In this document: piece after piece, positions 16,243-25,676 of the stretch
How the letters are laid out: every line of letters starts with the position of its first letter
Position numbering within the stretch: the stretch's first letter is position 1
NCBI RefSeq assembly: GCF_020514235.1
Contig: NZ_VTLB01000008.1
Coordinates: forward strand, 1-40,181
Origin: Synechococcus sp. MU1617
GTDB lineage: Bacteria > Cyanobacteriota > Cyanobacteriia > PCC-6307 > Cyanobiaceae
Length of the DNA: 40,181 nucleotides
Direction: 5' to 3'
Notes under the pieces: model-generated
What the model saw: the letters and a program-made list of their open reading frames with translations, nothing else
Told to the model about the DNA's origin: nothing
The model's database searches: none
Position numbers and translations under genes: made by a program

Positions 16243-16785
16243 TCAGCTACGGCGGGCTGCGCCACTGCCGGCCAACACTGGTTCCACTTCGTTGTGGGGG
16301 CGGGCAATGATGTGAGCGGCAACGAGGCCATCACCGACCCGCTCGCAGGCATCAGCTCCGGCACGCACAGCGGCATTCACGGCACCGGTTTCACCACGCA
16401 CCATCACCGTGACGTAACCACCACCGACGTATTCACGGCAGATCAGGGTGACTTCCGCAGCCTTGGTCATCGCATCGGCTGCCTCGATAGCAGGAACCAT
16501 GCCGCGGGTCTCGATCAAGCCCAAGGCCACACCGGGGACTTTTGGGGAAGGCATAGCAGCGGGTTTAGCCACAGCTGATCCACCACCGGATCCTGTGCTG
16601 GAGGCGCTGCTGCGACGGGTGGTCGTGGGCGAAGAGCGACGGGCTGTTGTTGCCGCAGGGGAGGCCTTGGCGGGAGTCGACGCCGGAGCAGGGGTGCTGG
16701 CCACGGGCTTCACATCAACGGTCTTGTTTGCCGCAGCCGTGCTGCGGGTGGTGCGACGACGGGGGGTGGGGGAAGGAGTGGCCAT
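16243..16785 (-). CDS. csoS1E: Carboxysome shell protein CsoS1E (BMC-H with N-terminal extension)
   Basis: 180 residues: an ~80-residue low-complexity N-terminal extension rich in Ser, Thr, Pro, Ala and Arg (RRRTTRS, TTARRSS, TTTRRSSAS), then a bacterial microcompartment hexamer domain (about 84-170). Over 87 aligned residues the domain matches CsoS1 of the same locus at 78 positions. It keeps REYVGGGYVTV around the pore and ends with AHIIARPHNEVEPVL. The known role of the fold is to form hexameric facet tiles. The extension is presumably disordered and could contact cargo or the shell interior, which is inference. It lies 53 bases after csoS4B. Confidence 0.92.
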   Translation of the reverse strand: MATPSPTPRRRTTRSTAAANKTVDVKPVASTPAPASTPAKASPAATTARRSSPTTTRRSSASSTGSGGGSAVAKPAAMPSPKVPGVALGLIETRGMVPAIEAADAMTKAAEVTLICREYVGGGYVTVMVRGETGAVNAAVRAGADACERVGDGLVAAHIIARPHNEVEPVLAGSGAARRS

Positions 16786-16838
16786 GGCTGTGAAGGTGTG
16801 GAAGCGGAACGGAAACGGCGGAGGGAAATAGGTGGTCC

Positions 16839-17090
16839 CTATCCGTCCGGATTCCAGAAATCGATGATTCCACCGATGGTCAGATCGGTGAGAACGGTGT
16901 TGTCAGGGCAGGCATGCCGTGCAGCTGAACCACTGGCAGTAAACACCCAGTTGCCCTCACGGGCCCCAACGGGATCAACGGCCACCAGCTTCTTGCCCTT
17001 GTTGTTGCGCAGGATGCGCAGATGCATGTGATCCAGTCCGGCAACCCGGTAGGAGCAGATCAACGTGCCCATCACCTGCATGATCTCCAT
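16839..17090 (-). CDS. csoS4B: Carboxysome vertex protein CsoS4B (BMC-P)
   Basis: An 83-residue pentameric shell-vertex protein of the CcmL/EutN family. It shows MGTLICSYRVAGLDHMHLRIL, LVAVDPVGAREGNWVFTASGSAAR and LTDLTIGGIIDFW. Pentamers close the twelve corners of the shell. The start codon overlaps the csoS4A stop by one base (TGATG). ATG at the fourth codon is an alternative start. Confidence 0.95.
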   Translation of the reverse strand: MEIMQVMGTLICSYRVAGLDHMHLRILRNNKGKKLVAVDPVGAREGNWVFTASGSAARHACPDNTVLTDLTIGGIIDFWNPDG

Positions 17091-17395
17091 CAGCTGGCCT
17101 TGCCTCCCGCGGGGTTGCTGGGGCTGGGAGATGGAGCAGAGGTCTTCGGAGGGTCGGGCTCCCAGTGATCAATGATCCCCACAATCGTGAGGTCACTTGG
17201 GTACGACTTGCTGCCGGCGGCTTCACGGGCGGCCGAGCTGCTAACGCAGATCACCCAGTCACCCGGCTTGGCACCGACCGCATCGACCGCCACCTTCTTG
17301 GTGCTGCCATCGAGCACCACCTGCAGATGCTTGTGCTCGAAATCGGGGATCCGGTTGGTGGAGACGAGCGGCTTGACGACCTTGACGATGAGCAT
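17090..17395 (-). CDS. csoS4A: Carboxysome vertex protein CsoS4A (BMC-P)
   Basis: A 101-residue paralogue of CsoS4B, with MLIVKVVKPLVSTNRIPDFEHKHLQVVLDG, VAVDAVGAKPGDWVICVSSSAAR and DLTIVGIIDHWEP. The C-terminal tail after position 84 is rich in Pro and Ser and is absent from CsoS4B. The start at 17395 is chosen from homology; the frame runs upstream into the end of csoSCA with no conserved residues. The gap to csoSCA is two bases. Confidence 0.95.
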   Translation of the reverse strand: MLIVKVVKPLVSTNRIPDFEHKHLQVVLDGSTKKVAVDAVGAKPGDWVICVSSSAAREAAGSKSYPSDLTIVGIIDHWEPDPPKTSAPSPSPSNPAGGKAS

Positions 17396-17397
17396 GA

Positions 17398-19143
17398 TCA
17401 GTGAGCCTCCGGAAGTTGCGGGTCGAGCGTGGAACCGACGACCTCGGCCGGAGCCGTCTGGTTGCGGTCGCGAATGGTGAGACAAGTGTGGAGCAGACCC
17501 TCATCGACGAGAGCTGCGTAGCGATCGGCGATGGCCTGGTTCACCCGTAGGCAATCAGCGATGGCCCGTTCCCGAGCACCGGGCACCCGGCCTGAGTAGT
17601 CGAAACGCACCACAACCGGAATCGGCAGATCCCGGGCGACATTCAGACCCTTGAAAATTTTCACGCCCACATCGAGATCAGGGGCGCCCTCTTCAACCGT
17701 GTCGAGGTGAGCGAAGTAGGTGAGGTTGCGCAGATGCACCTCTTTGAAGCCGATGCCAACACCGATGAACCGCTCCGCGTGCCCGGCATCCGGGTAAGTA
17801 CCCCCATGCAGATCCTGCACGTAATCGATTTGGGAGAAGTTGTTGGCGAGCAACCGGGTCAGGAAAGACACCATCCCGGCATCCATGGGGCCAGGAGCAG
17901 AGCTCTCAACGGCTTCTGCAATCTGCGCCATCGCCTGATCAGCACTCATCGATGCCGTAGCTGCATGTAGTTCTCTGGCGCAAAGCCAACGGTCGAGCAC
18001 CATTTCGCTGTCGCGGCTTGGGGGGTGAACCCGGATCGCATCGGTGTCGGTGTCGAGGCCGATCAGCAAAAGATCAACGGAGGCACCGCAGCAGAAGCTG
18101 TTTTCCACCGACTCACGAAAATCGAGCAGGCGCTGATGCCCCGCGGCTGCCGCCAGTTCATCATTGCTGCCATGGGCAGCGCAGCCCTGGTGGGAGGGAT
18201 CGAGGGAACTGAAGTGGTAAGTCACCACCTTCAGATAACGGGTCGGTTCGGTGGAGGGATTGGGTGAGCCTTCGCGGTAACGACGATGCTCGGTTTTGAC
18301 CCAGCGGTTCACCGTGTTCTCCACGTCGAACATGGCGCCGGCGTGGGAACGGCGACGCACAGCACTGAAGGGAATACGCAGGGCGTAGGCCACGGTATGG
18401 GCCAAACGACCATCAGCGCAGGGCGTTAGATCGAGCAGATGGATACCGCAGTCGAGCAGGAACTGTTCGAACTCTCTGGAGGCAGCACTGCCCGTACCGG
18501 CATCCAGTGGGTCGTCCTGGAAAAAGCGATCGCTAAACAGCCGGTGACTTTCGAACACACACCAGGCGAACAGGGCGCGCATGTCGAGAGGACGCACCCA
18601 GGCCCGCTGCAGGATGTGATCCGGCAGGTCAAACCCGAGTTCGGCCCGGCACAACCGCTGGGCTTGGGGGATGAAATCGGTTTCGTGCTGAAGCGCTGAA
18701 ACCTGTTGGAGCAGGGGAACGATCCGATCAAAACGTCCCTTGATCTCCAGCTCGTAGGCCTGAAGACGGGAGTTCGACGATGCATCCGTCAACGGATGAC
18801 GCCGATGGGTAATCGGCAGCGAACTGCGGCTCAGATTGAAAGGAACCGCCCGGGTAGCTGCTTTCTCGCGTCGTACCCAGCCCGGCTGAGAGGGAGCGGG
18901 ACGCTTGACGTCGTTGCTGGAGCGAATCCGACCGCCGCCCACTGAGCCGCCACCCAGTTGAGCGGCCTTACCCGAAGTGGTGAGGGCACGGCGGCGTTCC
19001 AGAGCGGCTTGGCGGGTGGAAGACTCCACCTCAGATGTTGTCTGGGCGGATTCAGAGATTGTGGCCAGCTGCTGAAGCTGGCGTCGAGTGGGTGCCGAGG
19101 GGGCCTGAGGTCGCCCGCCACGGAGAGGCTTGGAGCGAACCAT
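17398..19143 (-). CDS. csoSCA: Carboxysomal carbonic anhydrase CsoSCA (CsoS3)
   Basis: A 581-residue epsilon-class (beta-related) carbonic anhydrase that converts bicarbonate to CO2 inside the carboxysome. Likely zinc ligands are Cys242 in PCADGR, His310 in VVTYHF and Cys321 in HQGC, with Asp244-Arg246 as the catalytic pair. Spacings (68 and 11) agree with the Halothiobacillus enzyme (Cys173, His242, Cys253). The C-terminal degenerate half lacks such ligands, as in the family. The N-terminal ~100 residues are basic and flexible and contain AALERRRALTTSGKAA (46-61), almost the same as the first Rubisco-binding repeat of CsoS2. It starts seven bases after the csoS2 stop. Confidence 0.96.
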   Translation of the reverse strand: MVRSKPLRGGRPQAPSAPTRRQLQQLATISESAQTTSEVESSTRQAALERRRALTTSGKAAQLGGGSVGGGRIRSSNDVKRPAPSQPGWVRREKAATRAVPFNLSRSSLPITHRRHPLTDASSNSRLQAYELEIKGRFDRIVPLLQQVSALQHETDFIPQAQRLCRAELGFDLPDHILQRAWVRPLDMRALFAWCVFESHRLFSDRFFQDDPLDAGTGSAASREFEQFLLDCGIHLLDLTPCADGRLAHTVAYALRIPFSAVRRRSHAGAMFDVENTVNRWVKTEHRRYREGSPNPSTEPTRYLKVVTYHFSSLDPSHQGCAAHGSNDELAAAAGHQRLLDFRESVENSFCCGASVDLLLIGLDTDTDAIRVHPPSRDSEMVLDRWLCARELHAATASMSADQAMAQIAEAVESSAPGPMDAGMVSFLTRLLANNFSQIDYVQDLHGGTYPDAGHAERFIGVGIGFKEVHLRNLTYFAHLDTVEEGAPDLDVGVKIFKGLNVARDLPIPVVVRFDYSGRVPGARERAIADCLRVNQAIADRYAALVDEGLLHTCLTIRDRNQTAPAEVVGSTLDPQLPEAH

Positions 19144-19150
19144 CAGTGAA

Positions 19151-21523
19151 TCAGCCCCGTGCGCCGCCGGAGACGGTGATCAAGGAGCCCTTCTCGGTGT
19201 TACCGCTGGAGCCGGTCACGCGGCTCACAGGCCATTCGGTCTCCTCGTTGCGCTTGCGCTCGAAGGAAGACATGGCAGTCATCGGGCCAGGACGGCTGGG
19301 GTTACGACGGCGGGCCGAAGCACCCTCAGTACCGGTGACATGCTCCCCACGATCCCAGTCGTCGCCAGTGATCTTGGTGGAGGAACCCTCGCCGGTCACC
19401 CGAGATGCCGGCTTTTCAGAGGGCTCGCTGACCACAGCCACGGTGGGCTGGAACTGGCGCTGCTGCTGACGGTTCTGGAACTCGCGGTTATCGAAGCGGA
19501 ACTGCTCGGTACCGGTCACCTTGCCGCCAGCCATGTCAAAAGGGCCGGTAATGCGATTCCCATCCTCGTAAGACGTGCCAGTCACGCCGGAATTGGCCTC
19601 ACGTTGCTGTTGGGCAGCACGGGCGGGAGACACCACGCTGAAGCGGGTCCAGGCAGCACCCTCAGGGGCTTGACCATGGGTATCGGTGCCGGCAGGGGCA
19701 TCAGCGCCGCATGCAGAGGCCAGCTGGTCAGCACCCACATAAGGAGTGCCGGTGACTGCTTCACAAGCACCACGCTTGTCGCCGGTCATCACACCACCCA
19801 CGCCGGGTTGGATGCCCGTCATGGCCGCAGAAGGAGTGCCAACACGAACAGGAGTGCGCTCACGAATGGCCTTCACTGCGGGAGTACCGCAGTGTTGGCC
19901 GGCCTGCTCAAGGCCTGCATAAGGGGTGCCGGTGACGGCCTGGCAACTGCCTGGCTCATCACCAGTCACACGCTCCGAACGACCGGTGCGGGTGCCGCTC
20001 ACCACCTGGTTGCGGTTGGTAACACTGAAACCAACCTTGGCAGCTTCAGGCTCAGGCTTGCCGCCGCAAAAGGAATTGACCTGCTCAGCACTGATGTATT
20101 GATCACCTGTCACACGGTGGCAGGAGCCGAATTCATTACCGGTGACCTGGGAGGAGCGACCCACCAAAGTCCCAGTGACTCCCGTGCCCGACAGGGTGCC
20201 TGACAAACCGACCTTGGCTGCTGGACGGCCTTCGGGAAGGGGGTCAGAACCGAGGTATTGATCGCCAGTGAGGCTGCGATTCGCGCCGGCCTCATCACCA
20301 GTAACGCTGGCGGAGCGGCCAACCATGACACCGCTCACAGGACGACCCTGTTCGGTGAGGCTGTGACCCACCTTGCGAGGGGAAGTCGTGCCACCACCGC
20401 AGTAGGCCGCAGACTGATTGGCTGAGATGTATTCGGTGCCGGTCACGCTCTTGCAAGTGCCGGGCTCATCGCCGGTGACCTTTTCGGAACGGCCGACTTC
20501 GTTGCCGGTAACGCGGTTGCCGTGGCTGGTGGCAGTAACGCGCACCTTGGCAGGAGTGGTGGCAGCTGGAGCCGTCTGACAGAAAGTCTGGAAGACTTCA
20601 GCGCCCAAGTACTCCGTGCCTGTAATGGAACGGCAGGTGCTGGCTTCATTGCCAGTGGTTTTCACCGAGCGGTTGGCCTGGGTGCCAGTCACGGTCTGGC
20701 CAGACGTAGTGGTGCTTTCACCAACTTTCCAATGGGCATCAGCAGCAGCAGCTTGCTTGGCGCCGTGGCGGTTGGGACCGGTTGGGCGAGTCACACCAGC
20801 GCTTTGCTTGTTGCGGGCTCCGGCCTTGGTGCGCAACTCGCGCACCTGCTGGGCCAGCTCACGGCTGGTGAGATCGGGGTTAGCCTGACGAGCAACAGCA
20901 GCGGCACTAGTAGACTGCTTACCTGCAGTTTTGCCGTGCTTGGCCATGGCATCGCGGCGGGCCAAAACCAGGGCACGACTGGGGTTCTCAATAGCGCGGC
21001 GCTTAGGGGCCGCTGCACGACGTTCCGTGCGTGCAGAAAGATTGGGGGCCGAGGCACTCAATGAGGTGAGTGCAGTCTTCTCAGCAGCACGCTTGCCACC
21101 GCAGCCACAGCTCTTGGTGGATTCAGCAGGTGCAGCTGCAGGAGCAGCGGGCTTGGTTTGACGGGCCAAATCAGCGCGGTTGCGATCGCGGCTGGTGTCT
21201 GCGGTTTTGCCGCGACGGGACAGGGCTTCGCGACGGGCGAGCACCAGATCACGACTGGCATCGCGATGGGGCTTGACCTGTGAAGTGCGCCTGGAAGGAG
21301 CAGCGGTGAATGCAGTTGTTCGCTGCGGAGCTACAGCAGCGGGAACAACGGGTGCGGAAGCAGGTTCTGCAACTGCAGCCGCATTCGTACGGGTGGGACG
21401 GGCGTCATCAACGGTGCGAACACGGTTGGCGCCAGTACCAGCTGCAGCTGAGGACTTCTTACCGGAAGTGGTCAGCGCCTTACGGCGTTCTAGTGCGAGT
21501 TCGCGACTGGAGAGTCTTGCCAT
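19151..21523 (-). CDS. csoS2: Carboxysome assembly scaffold CsoS2
   Basis: A 790-residue intrinsically disordered scaffold that bridges Rubisco and shell. From ATG 21523 it has N-repeats at about 6-22, 90-106, 182-198 and a weaker one at 220-236 (type SRxLxLxRRxAxxxxGK, known to bind Rubisco). Six middle repeats follow at about 267-605, each with [VI]TG motifs; five carry a Cys pair with 17 residues between. A C-terminal shell-anchoring region (about 625-790) has VTGTE, ITGDDWD and MTAMSSFERKR, and ends in SLITVSGGARG. The frame extends 15 codons upstream to 21568, but MARLSSRELALERR is the family start. No A/T hexamer slippery site is visible, so only the full-length form is expected. Confidence 0.97.
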   Translation of the reverse strand: MARLSSRELALERRKALTTSGKKSSAAAGTGANRVRTVDDARPTRTNAAAVAEPASAPVVPAAVAPQRTTAFTAAPSRRTSQVKPHRDASRDLVLARREALSRRGKTADTSRDRNRADLARQTKPAAPAAAPAESTKSCGCGGKRAAEKTALTSLSASAPNLSARTERRAAAPKRRAIENPSRALVLARRDAMAKHGKTAGKQSTSAAAVARQANPDLTSRELAQQVRELRTKAGARNKQSAGVTRPTGPNRHGAKQAAAADAHWKVGESTTTSGQTVTGTQANRSVKTTGNEASTCRSITGTEYLGAEVFQTFCQTAPAATTPAKVRVTATSHGNRVTGNEVGRSEKVTGDEPGTCKSVTGTEYISANQSAAYCGGGTTSPRKVGHSLTEQGRPVSGVMVGRSASVTGDEAGANRSLTGDQYLGSDPLPEGRPAAKVGLSGTLSGTGVTGTLVGRSSQVTGNEFGSCHRVTGDQYISAEQVNSFCGGKPEPEAAKVGFSVTNRNQVVSGTRTGRSERVTGDEPGSCQAVTGTPYAGLEQAGQHCGTPAVKAIRERTPVRVGTPSAAMTGIQPGVGGVMTGDKRGACEAVTGTPYVGADQLASACGADAPAGTDTHGQAPEGAAWTRFSVVSPARAAQQQREANSGVTGTSYEDGNRITGPFDMAGGKVTGTEQFRFDNREFQNRQQQRQFQPTVAVVSEPSEKPASRVTGEGSSTKITGDDWDRGEHVTGTEGASARRRNPSRPGPMTAMSSFERKRNEETEWPVSRVTGSSGNTEKGSLITVSGGARG
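19703..20725 (-). repeat. Six CsoS2 middle repeats
   Basis: Approximate units: 20579-20725, 20399-20545, 20243-20371, 20066-20212, 19889-20035, 19709-19849. The unit pattern is VGxSxTxxGxxVTGTxxGRSxxVTGDE, then a Cys, then VTGTxYxxxxQxxxxC. Unit 3 lacks both cysteines and is shorter; unit 6 has a diverged first half. Confidence 0.9.
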
Positions 21524-21572
21524 GTCCGCCCGAGGGAGTCGTCGTGAGGTGGAAGGGCACTTGCCCATCCGG

Positions 21573-21604
21573 AAAAAACTGGAGCCCTGATCAGGTCAGG
21601 GCTC
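21573..21604 (-). terminator. Intrinsic-terminator-like hairpin between rbcS and csoS2
   Basis: On the minus strand GAGCCCTGA (21604-21596) and TCAGGGCTC (21590-21582) form a perfect 9-base-pair stem with a 5-base loop, followed by CAG and six T residues. It starts 21 bases after the rbcS stop and about 50 bases before the csoS2 start, inside the operon. It is probably a partial terminator or 3'-end stabiliser that lowers csoS2 relative to rbcLS. Confidence 0.75.
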
Positions 21605-21624
21605 AGAACCATTGGTCCGAAGGA

Positions 21625-21966
21625 TCAGCGTCCTTCGAAGACCACGAAGCAGGCACCCTGGCTCTGGGTGTAAGCGTCGTAACCGACGATGCGCACGTGG
21701 TGATCGGGGTATGCGCGATGGCAAGCCTCGAGCTCACTGACGACAACGTTCAGATCCTTCTCACCGAAGAAGGGGAGCTTCCAATAAGACCAATAGGTGG
21801 CCATGGAGTTGCTGGGATGGACGTGCTCGACGAGCGGGCTCCAACCCTGGGCAATGATGTACGCGATCTGGTCGTAGATCTCGTCCTGGGTCATCGGCGG
21901 GAGGAAGCCGAAGGTCTCCAGGGTGGCGACTGTTTGATAGTCACCCACGGTGCTCTGGAAAGGCAT
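21625..21966 (-). CDS. rbcS: Rubisco small subunit, Form IA
   Basis: A 113-residue small subunit that caps the L8 core. FGFLPPMTQDEIYDQIAYIIAQGW, YWSYWKLPFFGEKD and HHVRIVGYDAYTQSQGACFVVFEGR are typical of alpha-cyanobacterial and proteobacterial Form IA. It is separated from rbcL by 59 bases that hold a strong hairpin, and from csoS2 by 101 bases that hold a terminator-like hairpin. Confidence 0.97.
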   Translation of the reverse strand: MPFQSTVGDYQTVATLETFGFLPPMTQDEIYDQIAYIIAQGWSPLVEHVHPSNSMATYWSYWKLPFFGEKDLNVVVSELEACHRAYPDHHVRIVGYDAYTQSQGACFVVFEGR

Positions 21967-21984
21967 GGGGATCCTGGGTTTAAG

Positions 21985-22015
21985 AAAAAGGGTTGGCCGG
22001 TTGCATCAACCGGCC
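21985..22015 (-). other. Stable hairpin between rbcL and rbcS
   Basis: On the minus strand GGCCGGTTG (22015-22007) and CAACCGGCC (22003-21995) form a perfect 9-base-pair stem with a 3-base loop, 10 bases after the rbcL stop. It is followed by AACCC and then five T residues. It could act as a weak terminator, an RNA-processing boundary or a stabiliser of the rbcL 3' end. The 5-base offset of the T-tract argues against a full-strength terminator. Confidence 0.65.
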
Positions 22016-22025
22016 GAAGAAACGA

Positions 22026-23441
22026 TCAGTTCTGAACGTCGAGCTTGTCGACGGTGTCGAACTCGAACTTGATCTCCTTCCAGGTCTCGAGAGCGATGGC
22101 CAGCTCAGGGCTGTGCTTACCGGCTTCCATGAGGATGTCCCGGCTTTCCTTCTCGATCTCGCGACCGGCATTGCGTGCCTTGACGCAGGCCTCGAGGGCC
22201 ACACGGTTGGCAGCAGCACCTGCAGCGGAGCCCCAGGGGTGACCGTGGGTACCACCACCGAACTGCAGCACGGAGTCGTCACCGAAGATGGCGACCAGTG
22301 CGGGCATGTGCCACACGTGGATACCGCCGGAAGCAACGGCGAACACGCCAGGCATGGAACCCCAGTCCTGATCGAAGAAGTTGCCGCGGCTGCGGTCTTC
22401 GGGCACGAAGGATTCGCGCAGCTGGTCGATGTAGCCGAGGGTGGTCTGACGATCACCTTCCAGCTTGCCGACCACGGTGCCGGTGTGGAGCTGGTCACCA
22501 CCTGACAGACGCAGACACTTGGCGAGAACGCGGAAGTGGATGCCGTGCTTGGGATGACGGTCGATCACCGCGTGCATGGCGCGGTGAATGTGCAAGAGCA
22601 TGCCGTTCTTACGGCACCACTTCGACAGGCCGGTGTTGGCGGTGAAGCCACCGGTGATGAAGTCGTGCATGATGATCGGCATTCCGAGTTCTTTGGCGAA
22701 CTCAGCGCGCTCATACATCTCTTCGGGAGTGTTCGCAGTCACGTTGAGGTAGTGACCCTTGCGCTCACCGGTCTCCTGCTCGGACAGCTTGATGGCTTCC
22801 GCAACGAATTCGAAGCGGTTCTGCCAACGCTGGAAGGGCTGGGAGTTGATGTTCTCGTCGTCCTTGGTGAAGTCCAGACCGCCGCGCAGGCACTCATAGA
22901 CAACACGGCCGTAGTTCTTACCGCTCAGGCCGAGCTTCGGCTTGATGGTGCAACCCAGCAGGGGACGGCCGTACTTGTTCATCCGGTCGCGCTCGACCTG
23001 GATGCCGTTCGGCGGGCCGTAGCAGCTCTTGATGAACGCCATCGGGAAGCGGATGTCTTCCAGACGGAGGTGGCGGAGAGCCTTAAAACCGAAGACGTTG
23101 CCGACCAGGGAGGTCAGAACGTTGGTGATGGAACCCTCTTCGAACAGGTCGAGGGGGTAAGCGATGAAGGCATAGAAAGACTCCTTGTCACCAGGGACGT
23201 CTTCGATGCGGTAGCAACGGCCCTTGTAGAAGTCGAGATCGGTGAGGAGCTCGGACCACACAGTGGACCAGGTGCCGGTGGAGGATTCAGCAGCCACAGC
23301 AGCGGCAACTTCTTCCTTGGGCACACCTTCTTGGCCGGTGCACTTGAAGCAGGCCAGCAGGTCGGTGTCGAGGGGGACGTAATCAGGAGTCCAGTAGGTA
23401 TCCCTGTACTCCTTGACCCCAGCGTCGTACTTCTTGCTCAT
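22026..23441 (-). CDS. rbcL: Rubisco large subunit, Form IA
   Basis: A 471-residue catalytic subunit fixing CO2 onto ribulose-1,5-bisphosphate in the carboxysome lumen. The activation site is [11 protein letters not shown] with carbamylated Lys193 and Mg ligands Asp195 and Glu196. Catalytic Lys167 is in TIKPK, and loop 6 is [10 protein letters not shown]. Form IA assignment rests on the N-terminal [30 protein letters not shown] and on the alpha-carboxysome context. A good ribosome site (CGGAG) precedes the ATG. It follows csoS1 by 71 bases. Confidence 0.99.
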
Positions 23442-23485
23442 GGGAAATCTCCGTTAGGTCGGTGAAGAGGGTGAGACGTTCGCGT

Positions 23486-23499
23486 GCCTCGTCAGAGGC
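23486..23499 (-). other. Small stem-loop between csoS1 and rbcL
   Basis: GCCTC-TGAC-GAGGC on the minus strand, a 5-base-pair stem with a 4-base loop and no T-tract. It could protect the rbcL 5' end or the csoS1 3' end, but it is short enough to occur by chance. Confidence 0.3.
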
Positions 23500-23512
23500 T
23501 CAGCGGAAGATC

Positions 23513-23824
23513 TCAGTCCTTCTGACCAAGGAAATTGCCGTTGCCCAGTGCAGGCTCCACTTCGCGGTGGGGGCGGGCAATGATGTGAGCAGCAACAAGG
23601 CCGTCGCCGACGCGCTCGCAAGCATCAGCGCCAGCGCGCACAGCAGCGTTCACAGCACCGGTTTCGCCGCGCACCAGAACGGTGACGTAACCGCCACCGA
23701 CAAACTCGCGACCAATCAGGCGCACTTCGGCAGCCTTGGTCATGGCATCAGCTGCCTCGATGGCGGGGACCAGACCGCGGGTCTCGATCATGCCGAGGGC
23801 GATGCCCATGGTTTCGTTAGCCAT
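23513..23824 (-). CDS. csoS1: Major carboxysome shell protein CsoS1 (BMC-H)
   Basis: A 103-residue hexameric shell protein that tiles the carboxysome facets. It is one BMC domain: MGIALGMIETRGLVPAIEAADAM, GREFVGGGYVTVLVRGETGAV (pore region) and GDGLVAAHIIARPHREVEP. As the first gene of the rbcL-rbcS-csoS2 run it is expected to be the most abundant shell component. Upstream lies a 330-base region shared with the divergent rdgB gene. Confidence 0.97.
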   Translation of the reverse strand: MANETMGIALGMIETRGLVPAIEAADAMTKAAEVRLIGREFVGGGYVTVLVRGETGAVNAAVRAGADACERVGDGLVAAHIIARPHREVEPALGNGNFLGQKD

Positions 23825-24772: not shown

Positions 24773-25558
24773 TCAGAGCGATCGTGCATTTCGATTGACA
24801 TGGTCGATGGCGCGCATCGCAGCTGCCGCCGCTTCCTCAACATCACCTTCCCGCCCCACCAAAGTGAGGCGTCCAAAAGCACCCACCGCTTTCACGTCCA
24901 CCAAAGTGATGTTGGAGGCTTTTTCAGCCTCGTTGGCAGCAATCAAGACATATCCAGCCGGCTCAGTCTCCAGGATGAACATGCTCATTCCCGCCTCAAT
25001 CATGGAACCGCGTCGGTTCTGGCGGTTGATCAACACGGCATGGTCCGGAGTGATCGCTCGAATGACTTCGGTCCAGCTCACGTCCGCTGGAGAACGCTGC
25101 TCAATGGTGCTGCCGATCGCTTCCAGCACCACATCTCCGGAATGGAGAACAGTGCTCTGGTCACGGTGATAGAGAGCCATCGAACCAAAAGCCCGCTCCA
25201 CCACCATCTGGCCGAGGCGAACATTGCTGGCTTTCAGCGCAATGTCGGTCACGCGATGGACCGCCATGCCCGGTGAAACCTCCATCCAGAGGCAGGCGTC
25301 TCCAGGAATGGGCAGGAAACCTTGACTCACTGTCCCCATGTAGGCCGCAAGTTGGGGCTGCAGGGAGTCGATGAACACGTGCGTGCGCAGTTCGATCGAC
25401 TGCACATGGCTGTTTTGGCGAAGCAGCCTGGGTGACTCAGAATCCGTCGTGACAACACAACTTGCCCCTCCCTGCTGAGAGGTCACCTCAGTCCCGGTGA
25501 CGAGAGCACTACCGCCGCGTCGCCGCTCCCGAGCATCGAAGCTGGCAAAACGGGTCAT
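24773..25558 (-). CDS. csoS1D: Tandem-BMC carboxysome shell protein CsoS1D
   Basis: A 261-residue pseudohexameric shell protein made of two fused BMC domains (about 52-150 and 155-255). It forms stacked, gated pores thought to pass larger metabolites such as ribulose bisphosphate. The gating pair is conserved as Glu121-Arg122 in VVERAFGS. The N-terminal ~50 residues precede the first domain and contain [13 protein letters not shown] and [10 protein letters not shown], which resemble CsoS2 motifs. ATG 25558 is chosen by length; ATG 25585 adds nine residues and is possible. It is a satellite gene: same strand as the carboxysome run but separated from csoS1 by rdgB. Confidence 0.92.
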
Positions 25559-25676
25559 GGCGGGGAGTGTACCGGACGAATTCATCTGAAACGGCCCAAT
25601 AAAGAGTTGGAGCCTGCGGTCTTGCGCCTTTAAAAACAGCCGATACCGTCCGGAGAACCCCTCTAGAGATCTTGCA

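Follow-up and report, generated by a model that had tools for sequence, protein, structure and literature searches.

The window, i.e. the whole 40,181-nucleotide stretch of Synechococcus sp. MU1617 DNA analysed here, carries a cso cluster at positions 16243-23824 with CsoS1, CbbL, CbbS, CsoS2, CsoSCA, CsoS4 and CsoS1E-type ORFs (named by eye; the CsoS2 ORF was identified by Pfam PF12288), and csoS1D is situated near this operon. The features relevant to the present analysis are collected in Table 1.

Table 1. Coordinates of csoS1D, of the segments of its product and of the related cso genes in the window
Feature	Position	Strand	Remarks
csoS1D	24773..25558	minus	261 aa tandem-BMC shell protein with 54-residue N-terminal extension
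-10-like box TACACT	25566..25571	minus	13 bases before the csoS1D ATG
Residues 1-17	25508..25558	minus	Poorly conserved, basic (ARERRR); holds the MTxxxSF word, itself unconserved
V20-T21-G22, conserved [VIL]TG core	25493..25501	minus	In 150/150 distinct upstream regions
Second block, residues 31-41	25436..25468	minus	TTD in 131 long forms, absent in 19 short forms
Tandem BMC core	24776..25396	minus	From I55; two proteobacterial CsoS1D start about here
csoS2	19151..21523	minus	Scaffold, its [IV]TG repeats being the model for the putative tag; start MARLSSREL chosen by eye
csoS1 hexamer gene	23513..23824	minus	Proposed receptor; His79 equivalent in GLVAAHII (by eye)

Judged by the sequence match across both BMC domains, the product of csoS1D is CsoS1D: the CsoS1D of MED4 (3f56) was matched over residues 10-255 with an E-value of 2.8e-127, and that of H. 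neapolitanus (7dhq) over residues 47-259 with an E-value of 1.1e-86. The open reading frame, its ATG at 25558 and the N-terminal residues were all found as given in a preliminary description of this DNA. In 82 of the 111 distinct upstream stretches (135 loci fitting the pattern), a TAnnnT box with one to two mismatches to TATAAT starts 13 bases ahead of the homologous ATG, and the type of box seen in the window and its relatives (L001-L074), TCCGGTAnnnTCC, resembles a -10 element. This conserved box suggests that csoS1D mRNA may be leaderless or nearly so. Furthermore, the csoS1D open frame starts at the homologous Met in three relatives (L057, L079 and L080), which, together with the box, makes a start at ATG 25558 credible.

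Sequences of csoS1D for comparison were drawn from contigs of public genomes (454 candidates, of which 80 loci were retained) and from the family of the window's strain (30 loci taken, with a match in 361 of 400 genomes, and 90 genome entries of diverse genera, some of them repeated). A csoS1D match was absent in 39 of the 400 family genomes and in 5 of the 251 more complete and clean ones. After omission of one 83-residue fragment (L140) and two proteobacterial entries (L198 and L199), 197 usable Cyanobiaceae entries gave 150 distinct 45-residue upstream regions; the window and L001, which are the same csoS1D gene, are both among the 197. It may be mentioned that contig QCFB01000017.1 holds two oppositely oriented copies of one and the same csoS1D (L051 and L052), perhaps as an assembly palindrome. 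A Pfam search for CsoS2 across 59 genomes of the phylum returned the window's genome only, and that sample therefore holds no comparison group outside the family.

All 150 distinct regions carry [VIL]TG ahead of the BMC core (69 ITG, 69 VTG and 12 LTG), so that the stricter [IV]TG is present in 138 and the remaining 12 have L; a smaller early tally had given 103/103. When tripeptides were scanned, this was the sole pattern to reach 150/150, the runners-up, TTD and [VIL]TT, standing at 131. Inside the 45-residue extensions [VIL]TG was observed in 144 of 150, against a mean of 8.1% in shuffled sequences. Free alignment brought the G of the motif together in 150/150 and the T in 147/150. Threonine is encoded by ACC (69), ACT (30), ACA (29) and ACG (22), and glycine by GGC (71), GGT (34), GGA (32) and GGG (13; n = 150 for each residue); the use of four codons for each places the conservation at the level of protein and not of DNA. 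CsoS1D relatives share a common ancestry, and 150/150 does not therefore represent 150 independent events. A stronger point is provided by the shortened extensions, which keep [VIL]TG after the loss of its flanks. Long (131) and short (19) forms were sorted by the presence of TTD, and the short ones, without GASC..TTDSE, belong to genera g8, g35, g37, g48 and g49 (L133-L139 and L185-L197). They retain [IL]TG in 19/19, with the next-best common tripeptide in 14/19 and a shuffled [VIL]TG rate of 2.7%. In one single-contig genome of these genera (G102), csoS1D lies about 115 kb away from csoS2.

When substitutions were counted along a BMC-core tree, the columns from -14 to -1 relative to the motif had changed 28-53 times, positions +3, +4 and +5 changed 8, 27 and 17 times, and those from +6 to +15 changed 25-53 times each; T and G show no change in this count because the rows were anchored on the motif. 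The residues after the motif are mostly T, S or A, followed by E, D or Q, and the CsoS1D of MED4 (3f56) carries SSLVTGSEV. As a rule there is one motif per extension, while a few freshwater relatives (for example L065, L143 and L151) have two, further apart than about eight residues, and between 14 and 52 residues separate the motif from the core. The fast turnover of the surroundings and their varying length suggest that [VIL]TG may sit in a disordered region. An AlphaFold2 model of CsoS1D (39 sequences, L041, L065 and L075-L078 being without part of the N-terminus) had a mean pLDDT of 38.5, too low to be informative. Downstream of the motif, Cys precedes TTD in 119 of the 131 long forms; in the window this residue is C34 (25457-25459, minus strand), 12 residues past VTG, and it recalls the Cys of CsoS2 M-repeats.

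Other proteins of the carboxysome served as controls. The N-terminal extension of CsoS1E, a shell paralogue of the same cluster, has [VIL]TG in 1 of 61 cases, and CsoSCA was set aside as a second control, its anchor having fitted 33 of 63 ORFs and left 11-12 distinct windows (none with the pattern). Proteobacterial CsoS1D (7dhq, Thiodictyon and Nitrobacter) share the tandem BMC core of the window's protein; unlike the cyanobacterial ones, those of Thiodictyon (MINLRTYVYIDS) and Nitrobacter (MKITLRTYVFMD) start at the core and have no extension. In the 7dhq match, chain residue 11 was aligned with query residue 47, and since the first ten residues of that chain lie outside the match, only a long extension is excluded in H. 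neapolitanus.

The motif resembles a known element of the carboxysome scaffold. [IV]TG of CsoS2 contacts His79 of CsoS1A and forms hydrogen bonds to its strand (PMC10484944), and with AAA in place of VTG in the M-region, growth in air was reported to drop dramatically, with hardly any or no turbidity left in the presence of CsoS1A (PMC11365436); the requirement of [IV]TG of CsoS2 for assembly has been established by others (PMC10484944, PMC11365436). Like the [IV]TG repeats of the M- and C-regions, the CsoS1D motif consists of V, I or L before T-G, lies outside the folded domains and frequently has T or S next, then E, Q or D, in a protein of the same compartment. The two also differ: CsoS2 presents many motifs on a scaffold, CsoS1D generally one on a shell protein; the flanks are mostly unlike, the repeat spacing of about eight residues is missing, and no Tyr follows the motif among the rows shown. 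The CsoS2 family is described as having N-, M- and C-repeats within one protein (PMC12918739), and CsoS1D, a BMC protein with one motif, does not belong to it by this definition.

Past the tripeptide, the likeness of CsoS1D to CsoS2 is weak. Among 639 distinct CsoS2 sites the first position is V in 64%, I in 19% and L in 17%, the restriction to these three residues being fixed by the pattern [VIL][TS]G used for selection, and the next residues are most often T and then E. With a position matrix of these sites, only 2 of 1822 other ORFs equalled or beat the window's motif; many CsoS1D relatives, however, took much lower ranks (742 of 1822 at the lowest), and for many listed CsoS1D the best-scoring place was in the BMC core. 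With such ranks and places, the context past the tripeptide argues only weakly for a relationship. The two low E-values from hhalign are both biased toward a match, since the inputs were chosen by regular expression and CsoS1D was cut around TG: long-form extensions against CsoS2 M-repeats gave E 0.0021 at a probability of 13.5%, and 12 CsoS1D N-termini against N-repeats gave E 0.0014 at 17%. Four other pairings gave 0.54-0.81, and for whole long-form extensions against N-repeats E was 0.54. In the M-repeat comparison GSLITGTEV was aligned to the first [VI][TS]GTxV of the repeat, which is, at that low probability, the closest CsoS2 counterpart by profile.

The preliminary description had proposed another counterpart, namely the C-terminal peptide of CsoS2, on the grounds of a shared MTxxxSF word and a VTG, and had read the two as a possible CsoS2-like docking tag. 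The peptide (MTAMSSFERKR...SRVTGSSG) is indeed present in the CsoS2 ORF, at 19202-19282 by count. The pairing itself could not be upheld, as MT...SF occurs in 13 of 150 distinct CsoS1D and MT..[SA]SF in 1 of 74 distinct CsoS2 C-termini, and on the same counts the peptide was rejected as a specific counterpart; by its distribution, the MTxxxSF likeness is a matter of chance, local to the window's strain and its close kin. What survives of the idea of a tag is the [VIL]TG, found in every extension examined: non-conservation of the combined MTxxxSF..VTG pattern, named beforehand as evidence against the proposal, was observed for its first half, while the second half is conserved in 150/150.

We also considered elements resembling the Arg-rich N-repeats of CsoS2. 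The full N-repeat word RxxxxxRRxxxxxxGK was not found in the extension among the 150 distinct CsoS1D, and the pattern R.{5}RR.{6}G, which lacks the final K, was present in 8 of the 150, all of genus g45, where the extension begins with SRDELALRRRREMALG or similar. A profile of 122 distinct N-repeats was run on 2008 ORFs (L001-L140 and the window, most of the eight g45 sequences falling outside this set); it retrieved 66 CsoS2 and 9 CsoSCA ORFs below 1e-3, with best E-values on CsoS1D of 2 (L077) and 3.4 (L112). With profile E-values of at least 2 and an hhalign E-value of 0.54 for whole extensions, the N-repeat was rejected as a general feature of the CsoS1D extension, and the g45 likeness can be taken as a hint only. 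We find it distinctly unlikely that the CsoS1D N-terminus would be a miniature CsoS2, with an Arg-rich head related to N-repeats (clearest in g45) and a [VIL]TG, wiring this large-pored shell protein to both Rubisco and the facet. CsoSCA offers a parallel, as its disordered N-terminus can likewise bear a linear motif of CsoS2 (PMC10614612); its motif is the Rubisco-binding N-repeat, whereas that of CsoS1D is of the shell-binding type. It should be noted that the CsoSCA N-terminus in the window (18967-19014, minus strand) carries RQAALERRRALTTSGK, resembling the Rubisco-binding N-repeat motif of CsoS2. Of 62 CsoSCA ORFs, the 9 with an N-repeat below 1e-3 comprise that of the window (2.1e-5) and eight others, also from Synechococcus; a CsoSCA N-terminal peptide with the Rubisco-binding word of CsoS2 was reported in a handful of Prochlorococcus (PMC10614612).

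We lean, with some reserve, towards the reading that the N-terminal extension of alpha-cyanobacterial CsoS1D may be a flexible tether with a CsoS2-type [VIL]TG linear motif. This motif would most likely dock at the His79 strand of CsoS1, the site used by [IV]TG of CsoS2, on the lumenal face of a neighbouring hexamer, and would thereby recruit the rare CsoS1D pseudohexamer to the facet or hold it there; with a single motif per chain and 14-52 residues of tether, neighbouring hexamers could be within reach. We infer that the CsoS1D copy binds where CsoS2 does, that its tether is flexible, that the contact lies on the lumenal side and that it serves recruitment. The histidine of the presumed receptor is conserved: at the position equivalent to His79, H stands in all 122 CsoS1 copies retrieved by the search pattern, 46 of them distinct. 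Published observations are of both kinds. With the MED4 proteins, CsoS1 was detectable on GST-CsoS2 only if CsoS1D was co-expressed (PMC4499774), which fits docking of a tethered motif; the MED4 CsoS1D has the motif. In H. neapolitanus, CsoS1D was found in shell samples but did not appear in the structures, and the way it is incorporated 'may be distinct' from that of other trimers (PMC11606499); its invisibility in those structures also fits. Conversely, in an array of CsoS2 8-mers (PMC4499774, section 2.12) both CsoS1 and CsoS1D bound the C- and N-regions and neither bound in the M-region, and co-evolution of CsoS1D with other shell proteins was called very limited (PMC10689251); the blank M-region and the limited co-evolution count against docking on CsoS1. 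A further objection is that CsoS2 binds through many repeats and CsoS1D has mostly one motif per chain, so that the affinity would be low.

An unlikely alternative, in our estimate, is that [VIL]TG makes a contact internal to CsoS1D, either with the edge strand of the protein's own BMC domain or between the two stacked trimers, where it would stabilise the double-layered pseudohexamer or its gate and have no role in reaching CsoS1. The extension is directly followed by the first core strand, CsoS1D crystals contain stacked trimers (PMC12918739), and TTDSE, close to the core and conserved in the 131 long forms, would suit packing on the protein's own surface. However, the spacing of 14-52 residues and the loss of TTDSE in the 19 short forms agree better with a tether, and two proteobacterial CsoS1D manage without the motif. 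Binding of the motif to CsoS2 or another partner instead of CsoS1, for instance in joining the CsoS2 condensate, appears very improbable. We know of no VTG-VTG contact, which speaks against it. The contacts described for [IV]TG are, moreover, to CsoS1A (PMC10484944), although MED4 CsoS1D co-purified with GST-CsoS2 at about 5:1 (PMC4499774), and the pairing of VTG with Cys in M-repeats (PMC11365436) has its likeness in the Cys found before TTD in most long forms.

We give least credence, as highly improbable, to coincidence combined with shared ancestry, by which VTG would be a conserved N-terminal word whose function has nothing to do with CsoS2. This explanation would accommodate the shortness of tripeptides, the shared ancestry of the relatives and the modest context scores; yet the motif stays while its surroundings turn over, T and G are each written with four codons, and the CsoS1E control yielded 1 of 61.

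A prior description of a CsoS2-type word on the N-terminus of CsoS1D was not found in the open-licence literature, in so far as its text was accessible, and an earlier mention is possible; a 2026 paper on CsoS1D gating does not contain the terms N-terminal or N-terminus. A 2026 review (PMC12918739) describes the position of CsoS1D in the alpha-carboxysome shell as unclear, and two structural papers (PMC11606499, PMC10689251) do not settle its role, its place or the way it is incorporated. If the proposed docking is true, the motif would provide a short peptide for placing proteins in engineered shells. The published MED4 pull-down could be explained by such a conserved word on CsoS1D, and a tether of this kind suggests how the rare CsoS1D pore protein may be installed in the shell. 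It also predicts that H. neapolitanus may be ill-suited to the observation of such docking, its CsoS1D being without a long extension.
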